Shown here in pieces: positions 214 through 64,000 of a stretch of 64,000 nt of DNA (positions within the stretch are counted from its first letter, which is position 1; every line of letters starts with the position of its first letter). Under the pieces are notes generated by a model that worked only from the letters and a program-made list of their open reading frames with translations, made no database searches and was not told where the DNA came from. Source of the stretch: Bacteroidaceae bacterium (lineage in GTDB: Bacteria > Bacteroidota > Bacteroidia > Bacteroidales > Bacteroidaceae); assembly GCA_017465905.1 (NCBI GenBank), contig JAFTVE010000016.1:1-64000 (forward strand). The letters are read 5' to 3'. Position numbers and translations under genes: made by a program.

Positions 214-318
214 ATGGAAAAGAATTATATTGCTCCCGAAGTGGAAATTATTGAAGTTGCTGTAGAAAAAGGTTTTACTATTTCAATTGACTCGCAAAAC
301 ACCGGTGAATGGGATTAA
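214..318 (+). CDS. Putative 34-residue precursor peptide
   Basis: A 34-residue ORF that begins MEKNYIAPEVEII, has an acidic middle (VEKGF at residues 17-21) and ends SQNTGEWD. It contains no Cys and has 2 Ser (24, 27) and 2 Thr (22, 30) in the C-terminal part. I infer a leader (about residues 1-20) and a core (about 21-34). The inference rests on size and position: it sits directly before PqqD-like, kinase, ABC exporter and peptidase genes, separated from them by a perfect hairpin, an arrangement typical of ribosomally made, modified peptides in which the precursor is expressed above the enzymes. I recognise no named precursor family, and the modification is unknown. It could instead be an unrelated small protein. 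Confidence 0.6.
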   Translation: MEKNYIAPEVEIIEVAVEKGFTISIDSQNTGEWD

Positions 319-341
319 TTAAGTAAAACACCTTTATAATT

Positions 342-377
342 ATAGTGAATCCCCCTCTCGTGAGGGGGATTCACTAT
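342..377 (+). terminator. Perfect 16-bp hairpin after the peptide gene
   Basis: Arms 342-357 and 362-377 are exactly complementary (16 bp, 4-nt loop TCGT) and are followed by TTTA. The hairpin lies 24 nt after the peptide stop codon. It could end or attenuate the peptide transcript and protect its 3' end, giving far more peptide mRNA than enzyme mRNA. Because the arms are symmetrical it may act on both strands. Confidence 0.7.
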
Positions 378-463
378 TTAGGGGGTGAGATGTGTCTTTT
401 TGTTCTTTTGCCTAAGGAGCAAATGCAGGGCTTTACACGAAACTATATTTCTGCCGACATATC

Positions 464-494
464 TTTGCCATTTGGAATAAAAATGATAACTTTG
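464..494 (+). promoter_or_regulatory. Bacteroidota sigma promoter for the modification operon
   Basis: TTTG at 464-467, a 19-nt spacer, then TAACTTTG at 487-494 fits the Bacteroidota -33/-7 consensus exactly. Transcription should start near 501, about 30 nt before the PqqD-like start codon. A further TATCTTTG at 460-467 overlaps the -33 box. The five genes that follow have gaps of 3-10 nt and no other promoter is evident. Confidence 0.7.
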
Positions 495-532
495 AAGCAT
501 TAATATGCACTAACTATAGATAACAGAAGATT

Positions 533-802
533 ATGAGAATCAATACCCACTATAAGCTCCGCGAGATAGCTGGAGAGACCATCGTGGTGAACCAAGGTGC
601 TGGTGGCATGGATATGACGCGTATCATATCGCTCAACGCATCGGCCAAGCGGCTCTATGAGGCGCTGGCAGGCACCGACTTCGCGCTCGACGATGCTGCC
701 CGCGTGCTCACCGAGACGTACGGCATCGACAACAATCAGGCACGCACAGATGCTGCTCGCTGGGCCGAGAGCCTGAAGGGGTGTGGTGTAATAGAGGAAT
801 GA
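533..802 (+). CDS. PqqD-like peptide-binding protein (RRE-type)
   Basis: An 89-residue protein with the winged-helix pattern of the PqqD family: an N-terminal beta region (YKLREIAGETIVV), the segment RIISLNASAKRLYEAL, and a C-terminal helical half ending in a hydrophobic strand. PqqD-like proteins bind leader peptides and present them to modifying enzymes in the PQQ, lasso-peptide and related pathways. Here the likely partner is the 34-residue peptide encoded at 214. It is the first gene of the operon, 3 nt before the kinase-like gene. Family assignment is fairly secure; the ligand is inferred. Confidence 0.8.
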   Translation: MRINTHYKLREIAGETIVVNQGAGGMDMTRIISLNASAKRLYEALAGTDFALDDAARVLTETYGIDNNQARTDAARWAESLKGCGVIEE

Positions 803-805
803 TGC

Positions 806-1681
806 ATGGAAAAAAGGCATTATAGAATAGGTGGGCACTTGATGGAGGTGCAGGGCGATGAACTTTGCACTGCCGTGGAGGTTCTTCAAGGCTTTGCTCC
901 CTTTGCCGTGGAGGCCAATGGCGAGGAGCCGCAGCTGTGCTTTGCTGCAGCCGACCGTGTGAAGACCTTCACCAAGGTGCTCTACGAGCTGGAGCACGAG
1001 GGCGTGGTCACCCGCTTCGGGCATACCGCCGAGGGACTTCGCCTATGCATGCAACCCACCGATGATGCTGCCCTTGACCTCCTGTATAGCCCGGCTGACA
1101 GGGTGGCTTACGTGGCGGGCAACCTTGCTGCACGCCTGTTGCGCTTTGCCCTATGGATAGGCTATGGCCTGATGACACTGTCTCACCGCACGGTGGCCAT
1201 ACACAGCAGCTGCATCGTATATGACGGACGGGCAGTGCTGTTCCTTGGGGAGAGCGGCACGGGGAAGAGTACCCACACGAGGCTGTGGCGCGAACATATC
1301 GAGGGTGCCATGCTGCTCAACGATGACAGTCCTGTGATACGCTTCGAAGAGGGGCGCGTATATGCCTACGGCAGTCCGTGGAGCGGCAAGACCCCCTGCT
1401 ACTGTGCCGAACGCTATGAACTGAAGGCCTGTGTGCGCCTGTCGCAAGCACCGCACAACCGCATATCGAAGCTCTCCCTGCTGCAGGCCTATGGAGCCAT
1501 ACATCCGTCGTGCCCGCCGGAGTTTGCCTACGATGAGAGTTTGTACGATCCCATGAGCCAGACTATCGGCGACATCCTGCAGCGAGTGCCCTGCTACCAC
1601 ATGGCTTGCCTGCCCGATGGTGAGGCGGCACGTATGACTTGGGAGACGGTGTTTGGGGTAGTTATGAGTTGTGAGTTATGA
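806..1681 (+). CDS. HprK-like serine kinase domain protein
   Basis: A 291-residue protein with a P-loop GESGTGKST at residues 148-156, a preceding AIHSS motif (131-135), NDDS at 172-175 and YGSPWSGK at 188-195. These match the C-terminal kinase domain of HPr kinase/phosphorylase and the HprK-related kinases found in peptide clusters. The N-terminal half is not the usual HprK regulatory domain, and I see no HPr gene nearby, so carbon-catabolite control is unlikely. In paeninodin-type lasso clusters an HprK-like enzyme phosphorylates the precursor's C-terminal Ser; here Ser24 or Ser27 of the peptide are candidate targets (inference). The stop codon falls in a 7-nt tandem repeat shared with the next gene's start. 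Confidence 0.78.
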   Translation: MEKRHYRIGGHLMEVQGDELCTAVEVLQGFAPFAVEANGEEPQLCFAAADRVKTFTKVLYELEHEGVVTRFGHTAEGLRLCMQPTDDAALDLLYSPADRVAYVAGNLAARLLRFALWIGYGLMTLSHRTVAIHSSCIVYDGRAVLFLGESGTGKSTHTRLWREHIEGAMLLNDDSPVIRFEEGRVYAYGSPWSGKTPCYCAERYELKACVRLSQAPHNRISKLSLLQAYGAIHPSCPPEFAYDESLYDPMSQTIGDILQRVPCYHMACLPDGEAARMTWETVFGVVMSCEL

Positions 1682-1695
1682 GTTATGAGTTATGA
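1661..1695 (+). repeat. Five tandem copies of GTTATGA at a gene junction
   Basis: Five 7-nt units at 1661-1695 (the second reads GTTGTGA). The stop codon of the kinase-like gene (1679-1681) and the ATG of the nucleotidyltransferase-like gene (1692-1694) both lie inside the array. Each full unit carries ATGA. Copy-number change would alter only the last residues of the kinase and the spacing to the next start. Confidence 0.85.
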
Positions 1696-2801
1696 AGATA
1701 CATACTAATATAGAGGCAATGTTGTTTGCACTGCTGCGTTCGGCCCTGCATGAGGAGCCTGCAGTGTGTGACCCCTTCCGTGAGGCGACAGCCGAGGAGT
1801 GGGGTGCCTGCTACCGCTTGGCAGCGGCACAGGGAGTGATGGCGGTAGCCTGGGAGGGTGCCATGACACTCCCCGAAGAGTTGCGCCCACCTCGCACCCT
1901 GCGCTTGACGTGGGGCCTCGCCGTGGAGAAGTATGAGCAGCAGTATGCCCGCTATTGCCGTACGGCTGCTGAACTCTCGGCACTGTATGCCGAAAACGGC
2001 ATCGTGATGGTGCAGATGAAGGGAGTGGGCTTCTCGGCACACTACCCCGTACCGGCTCATCGTGAGGGTGGCGACATTGATATCTTCACCTACTCGGCCG
2101 ATACGGCGGTGATGAGCCACCGCGAGGCCAACGAACTGGCCAACGAGCTGATGCGCCGGCAGGGTATCGAGGTCGACATGCACTCGCCCAAGCACAGTAA
2201 CTTCTATTATAAAGGTGTACCCGTGGAGAACCACCGCAGCTTCCTCAATGTGACGGAGTATGTGGTGGCAGCACGCATGGAGCGGGTGTTGCGGGAGCAT
2301 CTGTTGCCGAGACCCACCTCGCTGCTCGATGGCGAATGCAACATCATGACCCCTTCGCCCTCGTTCAATGCGCTCTTCATCGCCTTCCATGCCTTGCAGC
2401 ACTATGGCAGTGGCTTGGCGCTGCACCACCTTTACGACTGGGCATGCTTGTTGCAACGCTATGGCTGGTGTCTGCCAGAGGGTGCTGATGATGTTGGCAT
2501 GTTGCGATTCATCGATGCCTTCACCGACCTTGCTCATCACTTGCTGGGGACAGAGCCAGTGCGAGGGGCCGACAGTGGATTGATGGAACGCATCTATGGA
2601 GAGATGCTGCACCCGCGATACCACTTGCGTGAACTGCCTGCAAAAGGGCGGTGGGGGATACTCGTGGAGAAGACACGCCGTCTGCTCTATATCCATCGCC
2701 TCAAAGGGGAGGTCATACAAGGCTCGCTGGCACGCCGCTTGTGGGACTCGGTAGTCTTCCACCTGCGACACCCTGAGACCATATTCAGTACCGGCAAATG
2801 A
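1692..2801 (+). CDS. Nucleotidyltransferase-like protein (NTP_transf_5 type)
   Basis: A 369-residue protein. Residues 108-132 contain MKG...HREGGDIDIF, the two-Asp motif (D128, D130) of the polymerase-beta-like nucleotidyltransferase family often annotated as a putative nucleotidyltransferase. The C-terminal half is helical and His-rich (HALQHYG, LHHLYDW). Such proteins recur beside PqqD and HprK-like genes, but their substrate is not known; transfer of a nucleotide to the peptide or to a small molecule is possible. It starts 10 nt after the kinase stop, within the GTTATGA array, and is followed 10 nt later by the exporter gene. Confidence 0.75.
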   Translation: MKIHTNIEAMLFALLRSALHEEPAVCDPFREATAEEWGACYRLAAAQGVMAVAWEGAMTLPEELRPPRTLRLTWGLAVEKYEQQYARYCRTAAELSALYAENGIVMVQMKGVGFSAHYPVPAHREGGDIDIFTYSADTAVMSHREANELANELMRRQGIEVDMHSPKHSNFYYKGVPVENHRSFLNVTEYVVAARMERVLREHLLPRPTSLLDGECNIMTPSPSFNALFIAFHALQHYGSGLALHHLYDWACLLQRYGWCLPEGADDVGMLRFIDAFTDLAHHLLGTEPVRGADSGLMERIYGEMLHPRYHLRELPAKGRWGILVEKTRRLLYIHRLKGEVIQGSLARRLWDSVVFHLRHPETIFSTGK

Positions 2802-2811
2802 TACGAGAACG

Positions 2812-4455
2812 ATGAATCTGCTGAAGCGCATATACAACCTGCTGCTTCCCGAAGAGCGGAAGCAAGGACAGCGAGTGGTGGGAGCCGCCTTCCTCGCAGC
2901 CTTGCTCAACTTCGTGGGGCTGGCATCGTTGCTGCCTGTGCTCTACTACCTGCTCGACGATAGTGCCAGCCGCCAGTCGGCACTGTGGTTCTGCCTGTTG
3001 GCAGGAGGGGTGATGGCAGGCAAGAACGTGGCCATAGCACTTCTCTCGCGTTATCAGCAGCGCTACCTGTTGTCGCTGTATAAGCGCATGAGCTTTTCAC
3101 TTTTCACGGCCTATTACCGCCGTGGCCTGCTCTTCATCCGTGAGCAAGGCACCAACAGGCTGGGCTACGAGGTGAATGCCGTGTGCTATGCCTTCAGCCT
3201 CAATATGCTGGCTCCTCTGCTACGTATATGTAGCGATGGACTATTGATAGCTATGGTCGTAGTGGCCCTGCTTGTGTATGACTGGCTTATTGCTCTCATC
3301 CTACTCGGTGCCTTCGTGCCCTTTGCCGTGTTCTATGTGGTAGCCATACGAAAGCAAGTGCGCGAATATGGAAAGCAGGAATTGGAGGCTCGCCGTCGCC
3401 AATCGAGAATCGTGAACGAGGCCTTCGGAGGATATGCCGAGTTGGAGGTCAACGGAGCCTTTGGAACCGTCAAGGATGCCTTCCGGCAAGGATTGGAACA
3501 GATTACAGGCAGCCGCCTGCAGATGGATACGCTGATGCGCTTGCCTGGATTTTTGTCGGAGATGTCGGTCATCGTGGGACTCACACTGATGGCCTTGTGT
3601 GCTACGGGCGATGTGAAAGCCCTGATAGGGGTATTTGCGGTGGCTGCCTTCCGGCTCTTGCCGGCCTTGAAGGGTATACTCTCGGGGTGGACGCTGATAC
3701 AGAATATGGTGAGCAACCTGCAAATCATAGAGGAGGGGATGAAGGAGTCGTCAGTCGAAACGGCCGTGACAGCTACACTCCCCTTCGAGAAGGAGATAGC
3801 CATAGAGAAGGTGTCATACACGTATAATGATGATGGACAGGTGCTGACGGACTTCAGCTGTCGCATACGCAAAGGTGAGTATGTGGGTATCAAGGGATAT
3901 AGTGGTGTGGGCAAGTCGACCCTCTTTAACCTCCTGCTCGGATTCCTGAAGCCACAGCAGGGAACCATCAGTATTGACGGTGTGCCTCTCACCCCAGAGG
4001 TGCAGAGCGCTTGGCTGCAACAGACTGGCTATGTTCAACAGGATGTGTTTATCTTCCAAGGCACATTGGCCGAGAATGTAGCTTTGGGGTGTAGGGGTAT
4101 CAATAGGGAGAGACTTGACCGTGTGTTGCAGCAGGTGTCTCTCTACGATTGGGTACAGACATTGCCGCAGGGTGTTGACACTCTGATGGGAGAATATGGA
4201 GGCCGACTGTCGGGAGGCCAGCGCCAACGTATAGGTATAGCGCGGGCACTCTACAAGGAGGCTCAGGTGATTTTGCTCGATGAGGCAACCTCGGCACTCG
4301 ATAATGCCACGGAGCGGGAGGTAAACAGGACCTTGCATAATCTCAAGCTGCAATGTCCAGGACTTACCATTCTCTCTATAGCCCATCGGGAGAGTTCGCT
4401 GGAGTACTGTGACCGGGTGATTGTGATGGACGAACAGAATAATGAGGAGGACTGA
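2812..4455 (+). CDS. ABC exporter, fused membrane and ATPase domains
   Basis: A 547-residue half-transporter. Hydrophobic segments in about residues 20-310 form the type IV exporter membrane domain, followed by a nucleotide-binding domain with Walker A GYSGVGKST (362-370), signature LSGGQ (466-470) and Walker B VILLDE (486-491). It works as a dimer. It lacks the N-terminal C39 peptidase domain of bacteriocin exporters, so leader removal would need another protease, plausibly the S26-like protein encoded 3 nt downstream. The context suggests export of the modified peptide to the periplasm. Confidence 0.85.
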   Translation: MNLLKRIYNLLLPEERKQGQRVVGAAFLAALLNFVGLASLLPVLYYLLDDSASRQSALWFCLLAGGVMAGKNVAIALLSRYQQRYLLSLYKRMSFSLFTAYYRRGLLFIREQGTNRLGYEVNAVCYAFSLNMLAPLLRICSDGLLIAMVVVALLVYDWLIALILLGAFVPFAVFYVVAIRKQVREYGKQELEARRRQSRIVNEAFGGYAELEVNGAFGTVKDAFRQGLEQITGSRLQMDTLMRLPGFLSEMSVIVGLTLMALCATGDVKALIGVFAVAAFRLLPALKGILSGWTLIQNMVSNLQIIEEGMKESSVETAVTATLPFEKEIAIEKVSYTYNDDGQVLTDFSCRIRKGEYVGIKGYSGVGKSTLFNLLLGFLKPQQGTISIDGVPLTPEVQSAWLQQTGYVQQDVFIFQGTLAENVALGCRGINRERLDRVLQQVSLYDWVQTLPQGVDTLMGEYGGRLSGGQRQRIGIARALYKEAQVILLDEATSALDNATEREVNRTLHNLKLQCPGLTILSIAHRESSLEYCDRVIVMDEQNNEED

Positions 4456-4458
4456 CAG

Positions 4459-4914
4459 ATGGTGAGGAGAGTGGTCGTGCAGAACCAGTTCTTGGCCGAG
4501 GTGGCTCGTGTGCTCTCAGAAGGATGCAGCGTGAAGGTGCGCATCGATGGTGAGAGCATGTATCCCTTCATTCGTGGTGGTAACGATGAGGTGGAGCTTC
4601 AGCCTTATGATGCCAGTCGCCCTCTGCAGCGTTGGGAATGTGCACTCTTCAAATGGAAAGGACGCTACATGGTGCATCGCTGTATAGAAATCCAAAACGG
4701 TATGTACCGTATGATGGGCGATGGCAACTTAAGCCAGATAGAGGAGGTCCCTGAAGAAGCTATCGTTGGCATCCTCAGTACAATTTATCACCCCGATGGC
4801 ACTACACAGGATTGTCGGGATACGCAATGGCTTCTTCGTGGCAGTCGATGGTACAGATGGCGTGCATTGCGCCGTTTCCTGATACCGATCCTTCGTCATT
4901 TTGGACGAAGGTGA
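4459..4914 (+). CDS. S26-type peptidase-like protein (SipW/ER-type catalytic residues)
   Basis: A 151-residue protein. GESMYPF at residues 31-37 matches the signal peptidase/LexA-fold serine motif (Ser33). MVHR at 72-75 and GDGN at 87-90 follow the pattern of archaeal/ER-type signal peptidases and SipW, where His (here His73) replaces the bacterial catalytic Lys and an Asp (Asp88) assists. No clear membrane anchor is present; the C-terminus is Arg- and Trp-rich. As the last gene of the peptide operon it is the best candidate for cleaving the leader. S24/S26 annotation is likely; the peptide as substrate is inferred. Confidence 0.72.
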   Translation: MVRRVVVQNQFLAEVARVLSEGCSVKVRIDGESMYPFIRGGNDEVELQPYDASRPLQRWECALFKWKGRYMVHRCIEIQNGMYRMMGDGNLSQIEEVPEEAIVGILSTIYHPDGTTQDCRDTQWLLRGSRWYRWRALRRFLIPILRHFGRR

Positions 4915-61556: not shown

Positions 61557-64000
61557 TTACTTCTTGAACTTGATGCTACGTGACGTCTCTCCATAGGTCC
61601 AACTCACGATATATGTACCACTGGGGAGTTCAGCCACTGATTGCTCAGTGTCGGCACTGAAGGTGTACAGCAGACGTCCACCAACAGTATATACACAAAC
61701 ACTCACCTCGGCCAATACACGCATATCGTCTGATGCAAAACGTATACTCTCGCTCGCTTGGTCATAAATAATGGCATAGTCTATTGCAGACTTATAGTCG
61801 AGAGGATCCACAGCATCATCAATAGGCTGCTTGGCCTCCATCAATTTCCAACGCACATTGGAGCCTTTATTCTCCACATTGCCCAAACAGGGTTCGCCGG
61901 CCTTTGGAGATTGTCCTGCCGAACCCAGTAAACCTGCGACATTGGTTAGCGTGAAAGCATTGCTGAGTACCTGTTCAGCGACAAACTCACCCCACTCATC
62001 ACGTGGAGTTTCTGACAGAGCCAGCGTGCCACTCTCATCCATTACCGACACATACATTCCATTCGTATATATATTATAGGTATTCAAGGCATTCGGAACC
62101 GGTATCAGCCTGAAGCGTTGTGCAGGATCCAGCGTGTCGGCCTTTTCCAGCGTAAGTCCCTCATTACATGAGAGGTTCAGTCCTGCCAGATGACGCATAT
62201 AATAATCAGTATTTTCCTTCGGAGCGTTCAAGGTAGCAAACAAGTCCATAGCCTCTCTCAATCGAGCGATAATATCTTGATACTCCTTGGCTTCGGTATA
62301 CTTACCGGTTTCGGCCTCCTCGACCACTTCGTTCAGAGCATCCACATTGGCTTGGGCATGCTGCATTGGTTGTGTTCCTATCCACGTTCTTCTCAGCTTA
62401 GTCAAGTTTTCTTTTGCCTCTTCAATCAATGCTTTCAGTTCGGCCTTAGCTGCAGCATTTTCATCGACATATTCCTCGATAATCCACTCAGAACGCATCA
62501 CCTCATCGGGTCTGTCTTCGTGTTTGTTGGCATATACTGTAGAGTTCTCATCGATAGCATCGGTTCCCAACAAGCCGTTTATGGTATATATATGCTGATA
62601 GTCTCCCATGGTTGTGACATTGAATGTAGCCTTATCCTCTGAAGTTATCTCTGTCTGGCCTACCATGGTCCAGCTATTCACGTTGCCCAACATTACATAC
62701 AATCCACTAGCAGACTTCATGTATACTCCATTGCCCTCACCTGTGGGCTCAAACGTAAATTGCTGAGCTTCATTCTTCTTGTCGAATGCTGTCACACTCA
62801 GTTTATCGGGTACGATATCGAGGTAATATCCAGAGCTCTTGTGACGAATGACAAAGGACTTGTCTGTTCCGGGCAGATTCTGCTTCTGTGCCTTAAGCAA
62901 TTGCTCTGACAAGCGCACCTGTGTTAGGATATAATCGTCGGGCACAGTAGACTCAAAAGACTTGGCATCGGCAATCAATTGCTTCAGCTTGGCTATCTCT
63001 TCAGCTGAATAGCAGAATAGAGCATCACCAATCTGCTTGTCGAATAGTGTAGCCAAGAATGACTCGGCATCGGCAACCATAGTAGCAAGCGCCTCCTTCA
63101 CCTCCTCGGGTACATAGTCGGGAATGAGTTCCTCGGGAGTAATACGCCATTGGCGATTGGTACTTACAGAATTTCGGTCATCACTGGTATAACTGAGGAT
63201 GTTATTACCATCGGTAGCACCACCGCCTGAATTGTTGATTGCATGCTCAGTATATACATTGATGATATTGTAGTTTTCGTTCTCATTCACTGTCACGAAT
63301 TTCCACCATTGACGTGAGTCCGAAGCATCGGGAACTGCAACATTCAAGGCCGTTCCTACTGCAGATGTTGGTGATGGATCGTTGAATGCCATGCCAGTAG
63401 CCTTATTGATTAGTTGGTAGTAGTCGTCCACATGTACTATTTGCCACAACTGAGTGTCGCGTCCATATTCGGGCGACCATATCACGACATTGGCTCCAGG
63501 TTCTGATGACTGGCCAGCAATATCGAGTACCTTATTGGTACCTTTATTATAAATACGATAGTAGTACTCGTCCTTCAAGACAAAAGGCTTGAGCGTCACA
63601 GGACTATCATCCTCAGCATTGGCACGCTTGGCAAAGGTTTTTGTAAGGAATTCCATATGTTCGCCAATAAAAGTCTTGAGCTGGTTAATATATTCGGCAT
63701 AAGTCGAGTAAAGGTATATCTCATTATATACATGCGAGGAGATGGAATAGCGGTTATAGTTCTCTGTTTGAGACTGATCGAGGTAAGCAGCCATGCTGTC
63801 AATGTAATTGTAAAGATACTCTTCAAGGCCATCGGCTACCTTCTGCTTCCAGGCATTGTTGACGGCATTGTTAAACCATGGATCTTTTATCATCTGCTTT
63901 ACCCAAACCTTGGTCAAGTCACTGCCAAAGCCAGCATCTATCATGTCACGATTCGTTACATCTCCCACTCGGTTACAATTGTTATAGGCAATATCATAGT
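61557..64000 (-). CDS. CotH-like, ricin-type lectin protein with T9SS-type tail (partial)
   Basis: The reading frame is open to the window edge, so the start lies beyond 64000 (the GTG at 63968 is not a credible start). The visible 813 residues begin with the C-terminal part of a CotH-kinase-like domain (about residues 1-115: NRVGDVTNRDMIDAGFG, KQMIKDPWFNN, YNRYSIS). Next comes a ricin B-type beta-trefoil (KPFVLKDEYYYRIYNKGTNKVLDIAG; repeated Trp-containing QLWQI and RQWWKF), then helical linkers and a C-terminal T9SS-type tail (DMRVLAEVSVCVYTVGGRLLYTF...PSGTYIVSW). A surface-exposed carbohydrate-binding protein is likely. The kinase active site is outside the window. Confidence 0.82.
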   Translation of the reverse strand, partial: YDIAYNNCNRVGDVTNRDMIDAGFGSDLTKVWVKQMIKDPWFNNAVNNAWKQKVADGLEEYLYNYIDSMAAYLDQSQTENYNRYSISSHVYNEIYLYSTYAEYINQLKTFIGEHMEFLTKTFAKRANAEDDSPVTLKPFVLKDEYYYRIYNKGTNKVLDIAGQSSEPGANVVIWSPEYGRDTQLWQIVHVDDYYQLINKATGMAFNDPSPTSAVGTALNVAVPDASDSRQWWKFVTVNENENYNIINVYTEHAINNSGGGATDGNNILSYTSDDRNSVSTNRQWRITPEELIPDYVPEEVKEALATMVADAESFLATLFDKQIGDALFCYSAEEIAKLKQLIADAKSFESTVPDDYILTQVRLSEQLLKAQKQNLPGTDKSFVIRHKSSGYYLDIVPDKLSVTAFDKKNEAQQFTFEPTGEGNGVYMKSASGLYVMLGNVNSWTMVGQTEITSEDKATFNVTTMGDYQHIYTINGLLGTDAIDENSTVYANKHEDRPDEVMRSEWIIEEYVDENAAAKAELKALIEEAKENLTKLRRTWIGTQPMQHAQANVDALNEVVEEAETGKYTEAKEYQDIIARLREAMDLFATLNAPKENTDYYMRHLAGLNLSCNEGLTLEKADTLDPAQRFRLIPVPNALNTYNIYTNGMYVSVMDESGTLALSETPRDEWGEFVAEQVLSNAFTLTNVAGLLGSAGQSPKAGEPCLGNVENKGSNVRWKLMEAKQPIDDAVDPLDYKSAIDYAIIYDQASESIRFASDDMRVLAEVSVCVYTVGGRLLYTFSADTEQSVAELPSGTYIVSWTYGETSRSIKFKK

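Follow-up and report, generated by a model that had tools for sequence, protein, structure and literature searches.

Gene content of the cluster

The stretch of DNA analysed here (the window; 64,000 nucleotides) opens contig C52 in the genome of a Bacteroidaceae bacterium (2.84 Mb, 80% complete), and the contig begins 213 bases 5' of a 34-codon open reading frame (ORF; 214-318, + strand). This ORF is followed by a perfect hairpin, a consensus promoter match and five tightly spaced genes reaching to position 4,914, so that all elements listed in an earlier note on this DNA are present. The five genes all lie on the + strand with intergenic gaps of 3, 10, 10 and 3 bases and encode, in order, a predicted recognition element for ribosomally synthesized and post-translationally modified peptides (RiPPs), a kinase, a nucleotidyltransferase, an ATP-binding cassette (ABC) exporter and a peptidase. 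Together with the ORF, they very probably form a Bacteroidota pathway of the type known for linear polyphosphorylated peptides (LPP), by which a linear peptide would be phosphorylated, perhaps nucleotidylated, trimmed and exported.

The RiPP recognition element (RRE; 533-802) is PqqD-like and LppB-like (PF05402, PqqD, E 1e-9) and is predicted to bind a YxxP leader. Its residues N35, Y63, D73 and W77 align with N33, Y60, D70 and F74 of LppB, which hold the leader Tyr and Pro in the crystal structure, according to the available part of the LPP report (PMC13381572). In an alignment of 16 relatives, N35 and Y63 were invariant, at least 90% had D73, and an aromatic residue stood at position 77 in 14/16. 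The second gene (806-1681) encodes an HprK-like peptide kinase resembling LppK and PadeK, with weak HprK matches. H133, K154 and D174 were invariant and D173 was present in at least 90% of the 28 aligned rows, and we take these four residues for the His-Lys-Asp-Asp motif of lasso kinases (PadeK/ThcoK type), the residue assignment being our own. The likeness to TIGR04352, the HprK-related kinase of the HPr-rel-A system, was weak (E 3e-5; 23 bits, with the cut-off at 200).

The third gene (1692-2801) encodes an LppN/PsmN-like nucleotidyltransferase (PF14907, NTP_transf_5, E 2e-42), in which K110, G111, G127, D128, I129 and D130 were invariant in 27 rows. The AlphaFold2 model of this protein (pLDDT 93.7) gave 256 Foldseek matches, one of them at E<=0.001, to the nucleotidyltransferase-like structure 5uvd (8e-4), followed by ANT(2'')-Ia (E 0.011, probability 1.00); the whole-length TM-scores were low (0.35 and 0.33, respectively). 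The matches of the model favour nucleotidyl transfer as the predicted activity, while PsmN, which gave hexoses in E. coli according to the available part of its report (PMC9266682), points otherwise. By sequence, no PDB match was obtained for the kinase and the nucleotidyltransferase at thresholds of 0.01 and 0.1. The fourth gene (2812-4455) encodes an MsbA-like, LppD-like ABC exporter (ABC_tran, E 1e-31), for which no peptidase domain was matched in the family scans. The last gene (4459-4914) encodes an LppS-like S26 leader peptidase of the SipW/archaeal type with S33, H73 and D88, the counterparts of LppS S29, H68 and D93; S33 and H73 were invariant and D88 was found in 25/26 rows. Its match to TIGR02228 (archaeal-type signal peptidase I; E 1e-4) stays below the cut-off, and it also matched the signal peptidases SPase I (8e-5), SEC11C (1e-4) and SEC11A (1e-3).

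Conserved leader of the precursor peptide

The 214-318 ORF was recovered by the peptide profiles as a precursor with the leader Y5..P8..E..E...EKGF21..S24 and the tail IDSQNTGEWD. In the 20-row peptide alignment, Y5, P8, E14, E18, G20 and S24 were invariant, and the leader pattern Y..P...E..E...E.GFA.S was conserved, with a short acidic tail that varies. Ser stood at Y+19 in 32/33 motif-bearing peptides (31 distinct) and at Y+18 in one, by a search pattern that demands Ser and permits only these two spacings; the pattern was fitted by 31/31 profile hits at E<1e-4, and one added peptide (L137) lies outside it. Among the 31 distinct peptides, the median number of residues after the conserved Ser was 11, with 27% Asp/Glu, 3% Lys/Arg and no Cys, and Trp occurred among the last five residues in 18. 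A second Ser after the conserved one was absent in 18/31 and any further Ser or Thr in 7/31, two of these seven having no tail at all. The conserved Ser is the likely target of the kinase, if this enzyme is Ser-specific like LppK.

For 69 distinct leader DNAs, the median proportion of synonymous differences (pS) was 0.78 against 0.23 for non-synonymous differences (pN; 2,346 pairs), compared with 0.45 and 0.41 in a frame-shifted control (21 usable pairs); the result is partly biased because the leader set was chosen by protein profile. On this basis, the 214-318 ORF is not a chance ORF. No Pfam or NCBIfam family was found for the peptide at E up to 1. The peptide profile search of the window's own genome returned three peptide genes, one beside the cluster (C52) and two elsewhere (C3:578-676 and C19:20333-20416).

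Co-occurrence of precursor peptides and modification enzymes

To survey relatives, the nucleotidyltransferase alignment was scanned against one genome per species (103 relatives) and the best 80 loci were kept. The five genes were complete in 51/80 loci, 10 were partial, and the nucleotidyltransferase stood alone in 19. Carriers among the 80 loci include Phocaeicola vulgatus ATCC 8482 (L087), P. massiliensis, P. sartorii, P. faecalis, Dysgonomonas sp. 511 and Bacteroides cellulosilyticus. Ten arrangements were observed among the 51 full loci: RRE-nucleotidyltransferase-ABC-kinase-S26 was commonest (24), followed by kinase-S26-RRE-nucleotidyltransferase-ABC (12/51) and RRE-ABC-kinase-S26-nucleotidyltransferase (5/51), and seven further arrangements accounted for 10/51 loci, the window's own order among them once (L078).

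The earlier note had proposed looking in relatives for a conserved short ORF with a constant leader and a variable core, and this search was positive: a peptide was found within 10 kb (E<1e-4) in 23/51 full loci, compared with 2/10 partial and 1/19 nucleotidyltransferase-only loci. The locus peptide profile was built from six seed peptides, and five of the 23 positives (L082, L085, L087, L103 and L104) repeat a seed peptide, leaving 18/46 without them. The reversed DNA of the 80 loci gave 0 hits at E<1e-4 (best E 0.061).

The association was also observed at the genome level. Across 301 family genomes, the peptide (E<=1e-4) was present in 18/20 genomes with a strong RRE and in 8/281 others (Fisher 7e-21), where the cut-off for a strong RRE (E<1e-18) was chosen after viewing the list. 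Six of the 18 genomes (G000, G018, G119, G198, G316 and G250) supplied seeds, and 12/14 versus 8/281 remain without them; further rows of the 20-row peptide alignment may stem from the same genomes. Among 61 relatives, peptide hits at E<1e-6 were confined to G018 (6), G000 (3), G044 (2) and G055 (2), with 7, 3, 9 and 3 hits, respectively, at E<=0.01, and single weak hits (E 6e-5 to 0.0045) occurred in G008, G010, G013, G016, G029 and G031. In the four genomes G018, G000, G044 and G055, the kinase, S26 peptidase, RRE and full-length ABC protein matched together (the window, L035, L036 and L039), the nucleotidyltransferase being found only in the window and L039.

Precursors were present in several copies per genome (up to 10) and often lay remote from the enzymes. 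Four clusters that are complete or nearly so lack a local peptide (L058, L066, L067 and L068, in G211, G172, G262 and G224; the ABC gene is missing from L068), and 4, 5, 4 and 1 peptides, respectively, were found elsewhere in their genomes.

Comparison with known systems and proposed pathway

The earlier note had regarded the cluster as undescribed, but the same five core genes were described in May 2026 from Paenibacillus alginolyticus as its lpp cluster (Popov et al. 2026, PMC13381572). According to the available part of that report, LPP clusters of Bacillota comprise five core genes and a precursor with a YxxP leader, and leader cleavage and Ser polyphosphorylation were shown experimentally: LppK can load a single Ser with as many as four phosphates, LppS cuts the leader together with LppB, and no activity of LppN was visible in the heterologous host. 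LPP are stated there to be restricted to Bacillota, with a role unknown to the authors (PMC13381572). The supposedly new combination of kinase and nucleotidyltransferase chemistry also has a precedent in pseudomycoidin, where PsmK and PsmN act on one peptide, as far as the accessible part of the source goes (PMC9266682).

The window contains the LPP core set, namely an RRE, an HprK-like kinase, an NTP transferase, an MsbA-like ABC protein and a SipW-type peptidase, together with a YxxP leader and no cyclase in the cluster, and its proteins retain the LppB pocket residues and the LppS catalytic Ser-His-Asp. It differs from LPP in its host (Bacteroidota versus Bacillota) and in its leader, which reads Y..P.VE.IEV.VEKGFA.S in the window type and does not conform to the LPP motif YxxPxVLxHQxIxFETxxS. 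The two leaders have only YxxPxV, one Phe and a subsequent Ser in common, and the Ser lies three residues after the Phe instead of five. Precursors are also dispersed here and often stand beside large surface-type proteins. Since the RRE is no closer to LppB than it is to a lasso RRE, the system is called LPP-like rather than LPP, with common descent as a possibility. Phosphorylated lasso peptides of the pseudomycoidin/paeninodin type likewise have an HprK-like kinase plus a PsmN-like nucleotidyltransferase, according to the part of the source at hand (PMC9266682), but the window cluster has no lasso cyclase or B2 peptidase and carries an S26 peptidase instead.

Searches of the open-licence PMC literature gave no recognisable paper on a Bacteroidota version of LPP, and the available part of a study mining Bacteroidales for RiPPs (PMC10352776) shows no such cluster. 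What is new here is the phylum, the leader consensus, the conserved Ser at Y+19, the dispersed precursors and the large neighbours, and the last two were absent from the view of the earlier note. A RiPP family stated to be confined to Bacillota would thereby extend to Bacteroidota, where its carriers would include a sequenced strain, Phocaeicola vulgatus ATCC 8482.

In the proposed pathway, the RRE would bind the Y-x-x-P leader of the 214-318 peptide and of sibling peptides encoded elsewhere, as suggested by the pocket residues and the co-occurrence. The HprK-like kinase would then phosphorylate the conserved Ser at Y+19, and the nucleotidyltransferase may add a nucleotide to the Ser phosphate or prepare it for a sugar, which is the weakest step. 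By analogy with LppS, the Ser-His-Asp peptidase is predicted to cut the leader next to G-F-A-x-S, and the ABC protein would export the short acidic phosphopeptide. Cyclisation is not expected. The cell surface is the probable site of action of the product, which may work together with the adjoining large protein, a suggestion drawn from gene pairing alone.

Large proteins encoded beside the precursors

The neighbours were counted for 77 distinct peptide ORFs in the examined loci. A same-strand gene of at least 250 codons lay within 200 bases downstream of 52/77 peptide ORFs, and 43 of these 52 genes (43/77 peptides) had a lipobox-like start by a simple pattern, compared with 77/455 for ordinary pairs of genes from these loci. 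A large same-strand gene ended at most 120 bases upstream of 25/77 peptide ORFs. A common C-terminal pattern was present in 15 of these 25 genes (15/77 peptides) and in 4/913 other genes, a difference whose P value is inflated because the pattern was drawn up after seeing examples. The pattern lumps two kinds of ends, a type IX secretion system (T9SS) tail in 3 proteins and a GxIYIxxGKK-like end in 12. The T9SS tail (TIGR04183) scored above its curated cut-off in L114, L115 and L173, and also in L172, which the pattern had missed, and was unmatched in nine scanned GxIYIxxGKK-like ends (L166, L169, L168, L170, L188, L189, L192, L196 and L199). Five of the 12 GxIYIxxGKK-like proteins had a BspA-type leucine-rich repeat (LRR) match, LRR_5 (L104, L166, L169, L192 and L194). 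The lipoprotein partners mostly had no family match at 0.01; for the partner in P. vulgatus, nothing was found in the Pfam/NCBIfam scan at 0.01, and its all-beta model (mean pLDDT 54.6) was too poor for a structure search. In P. vulgatus ATCC 8482 (around 5.116-5.124 Mb of NC_009614.1), the peptide gene immediately precedes the gene of a lipoprotein of 943 residues.

In one relative, G183, nine peptides lie within 51 kb (C1:1797300-1848319), interspersed with lipobox proteins 756-1,104 residues long, most of which resemble each other. All five enzymes are encoded in the same stretch (RRE 54%, nucleotidyltransferase 30%, ABC 46%, kinase 51% and S26 50% identical).

Based on these pairings, it is tentatively proposed, as a possibility held at lower confidence than the pathway itself, that one LPP-type kit matures dispersed precursors each dedicated to its adjoining large surface protein, and that the exported phosphorylated, perhaps nucleotide-activated peptide joins or binds that protein or its glycan. 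If true, a repertoire of surface proteins would bear a matching repertoire of modified peptides. The pairing is the surprising part of the finding and a first lead to a purpose of such phosphopeptides.

Evaluation of the proposed pathway and of alternatives

The reading as a peptide modification and export cluster, already made in the earlier note, is well supported by the five-gene set, the conserved residues, the leader and the co-occurrence, and several observations weigh against the LPP-type pathway proposed here. No peptide was within reach in 28/51 full loci, 14 of which are truncated by the contig end. A strong RRE stands without any peptide at 1e-4 in G010 and G173, and the reverse was observed in G237 (6 peptides, 72% complete) and in G031 and G265 (1 each), which have no RRE hit at 1e-4. 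Many genomes of the same genus carry a kinase-S26-RRE trio without the nucleotidyltransferase, ABC protein or main peptide class in the fetched stretch, indicating that these enzyme types also serve another setting. Among the 61 relatives, L028, L029 and L040 (G029, G035 and G024) hold the kinase, S26 peptidase and RRE without a strong peptide, their ABC match being weaker and limited to the ATPase part. The nucleotidyltransferase step is tentative because LppN showed no activity in the heterologous host. In addition, the window peptide has no adjoining surface protein, its upstream side being cut by the contig end. Finally, the RRE profile scored lasso RREs in the PDB (TfuB1, E 1.7e-6; TbiB1, 0.061) better than LppB (0.64), which together with PbaB1 (0.78) was among chance hits.

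These lasso RRE matches would also fit a degenerate lasso pathway, in which the enzymes would serve lasso tailoring and a remotely encoded cyclase would close the ring of the peptide. YxxP is common in lasso leaders according to the accessible part of one source (PMC13381572), and the kinase and nucleotidyltransferase are known from lasso clusters in the literature available in part. However, the B2 transglutaminase (PF13471) had 0 matches in the window's own genome (80% complete), Asn-synthase (PF00733) hits in this genome were confined to C8 and C35, away from the peptide contigs C52, C3 and C19, and the S26 peptidase would fill the B2 role as in LPP; a degenerate lasso pathway is improbable. 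About equally improbable is a regulatory role of the small ORF, as a leader (upstream ORF or attenuator) of the large-protein genes and no enzyme substrate. The position of 43/77 peptide ORFs directly 5' of lipobox genes and the hairpin 3' of the window ORF would suit such a role, but the peptide accompanies a strong RRE (18/20 versus 8/281), its YxxP motif suits the RRE pocket, its gene lies downstream of the neighbour in 15/77 cases, and the partly biased pS/pN values point to constraint at the protein level.

A secreted antimicrobial or signalling peptide made by the same pathway, with the large neighbours as receptors, immunity proteins or merely frequent neighbours, is conceivable though rather unlikely. 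The variable tails, the several peptides per genome and the patchy presence would be consistent with such a product, whereas the leader remains constant across neighbours of different architecture (LRR, beta-rich, C10 peptidase), and no dedicated immunity gene was noticed, though none was searched for. The LPP-type pathway is itself common to this explanation and to the proposed dedication of each precursor to a surface protein.

Hairpin, promoter matches and probable transcription units

Between the precursor and the enzyme genes lies a perfect 16-bp stem-loop on the + strand (stem 342-357/362-377). For the region 316-400, the folding energy is -36.9 kcal/mol (z -6.7; 0/200 shuffles equally stable), and the 30-base core of the hairpin occurs at a single place in the genome. 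The hairpin is probably a terminator or attenuator that sets precursor dosage apart from enzyme dosage. Ahead of the enzyme operon, an exact match to the Bacteroidota-type promoter consensus was found at 464-494 (+), 38 bases 5' of the RRE gene (TTTG-N19-TAACTTTG, also written TTTG-N19-TANNTTTG). In 64 kb, this pattern occurs 4 times where 0.62 matches are expected, and 4 were reached in 1/100 shuffles. The peptide gene itself has no Bacteroidota-type promoter match. Scanning 1-900 for sigma-70 sites turned up 2 where 1.5 are expected, which is not above chance, and one of the two lies at 167-194, 5' of the peptide gene. Because the hairpin follows the peptide ORF and the promoter match then precedes the RRE gene, the peptide gene and the enzyme genes seem to be transcribed as two neighbouring units.

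Related loci and other peptide classes

In a sister species, L064 corresponds to window 1692-4914 with a peptidase 84.6% identical and the ABC protein and nucleotidyltransferase part about 95% identical. In the sister genome G002 (nucleotidyltransferase part 95% identical), no RRE or peptide was found, the contig starting inside the nucleotidyltransferase gene. The window's own genome has a second PF14907-type nucleotidyltransferase (G000:C42:8087-8944; L074), and the other four genes were unmatched within 10.5 kb around it. It also has 16 matches to the T9SS type A sorting domain at E<=0.001, including one at window 61566-61709 (-). At L172:1304-6198, a YxxP peptide lies directly 3' of a C10 peptidase with a Spi inhibitor domain and a T9SS tail. 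In G183 (C1:1793000-1851900; L183-L185), pairs of a peptide and a large lipobox protein are arrayed around the enzyme genes, and the array also contains two 582-residue ORFs with identical first 60 residues, AAA-ATPase-like by eye.

On plasmid pNP243 of Butyrivibrio fibrisolvens (L158), an LPP-type row of kinase, YxxP small ORF, PqqD and S24/S26 peptidase adjoins the polysaccharide genes pssD/pssE; it differs from the window in a Cys-containing tail, in a kinase and peptidase only 23% and 21% identical to the window's, and in a Glu replacing the catalytic Asp.

The kinase-S26-PqqD trio of the window's genus (e.g., L024:7779-10453, L041, L047 and L050), for which the nucleotidyltransferase, ABC protein and main peptide class were not found in the stretch fetched, often adjoins a gene from a 14-member group, which was judged by eye, on one sequence, to be MurF. 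A second YxxP peptide class, VELEGGFC.S, was found at L182:1906-2091, L031:84-263, L030:9996-10166 and L181:5600-5890, with the L181 and L182 peptides 20 and 22 bases 5' of a lipobox gene. This class was considered as the substrate of the orphan HprK-S26-PqqD trio, a pairing that is not established because the class occurs in only 7/61 genomes. A third peptide type (L070:14214-14435, L137:9520-9822 and L142:2802-3131), with a long Ser/Thr-rich tail ending in LEDxxNxILTxE, sits near clusters ordered kinase-S26-RRE-nucleotidyltransferase-ABC.

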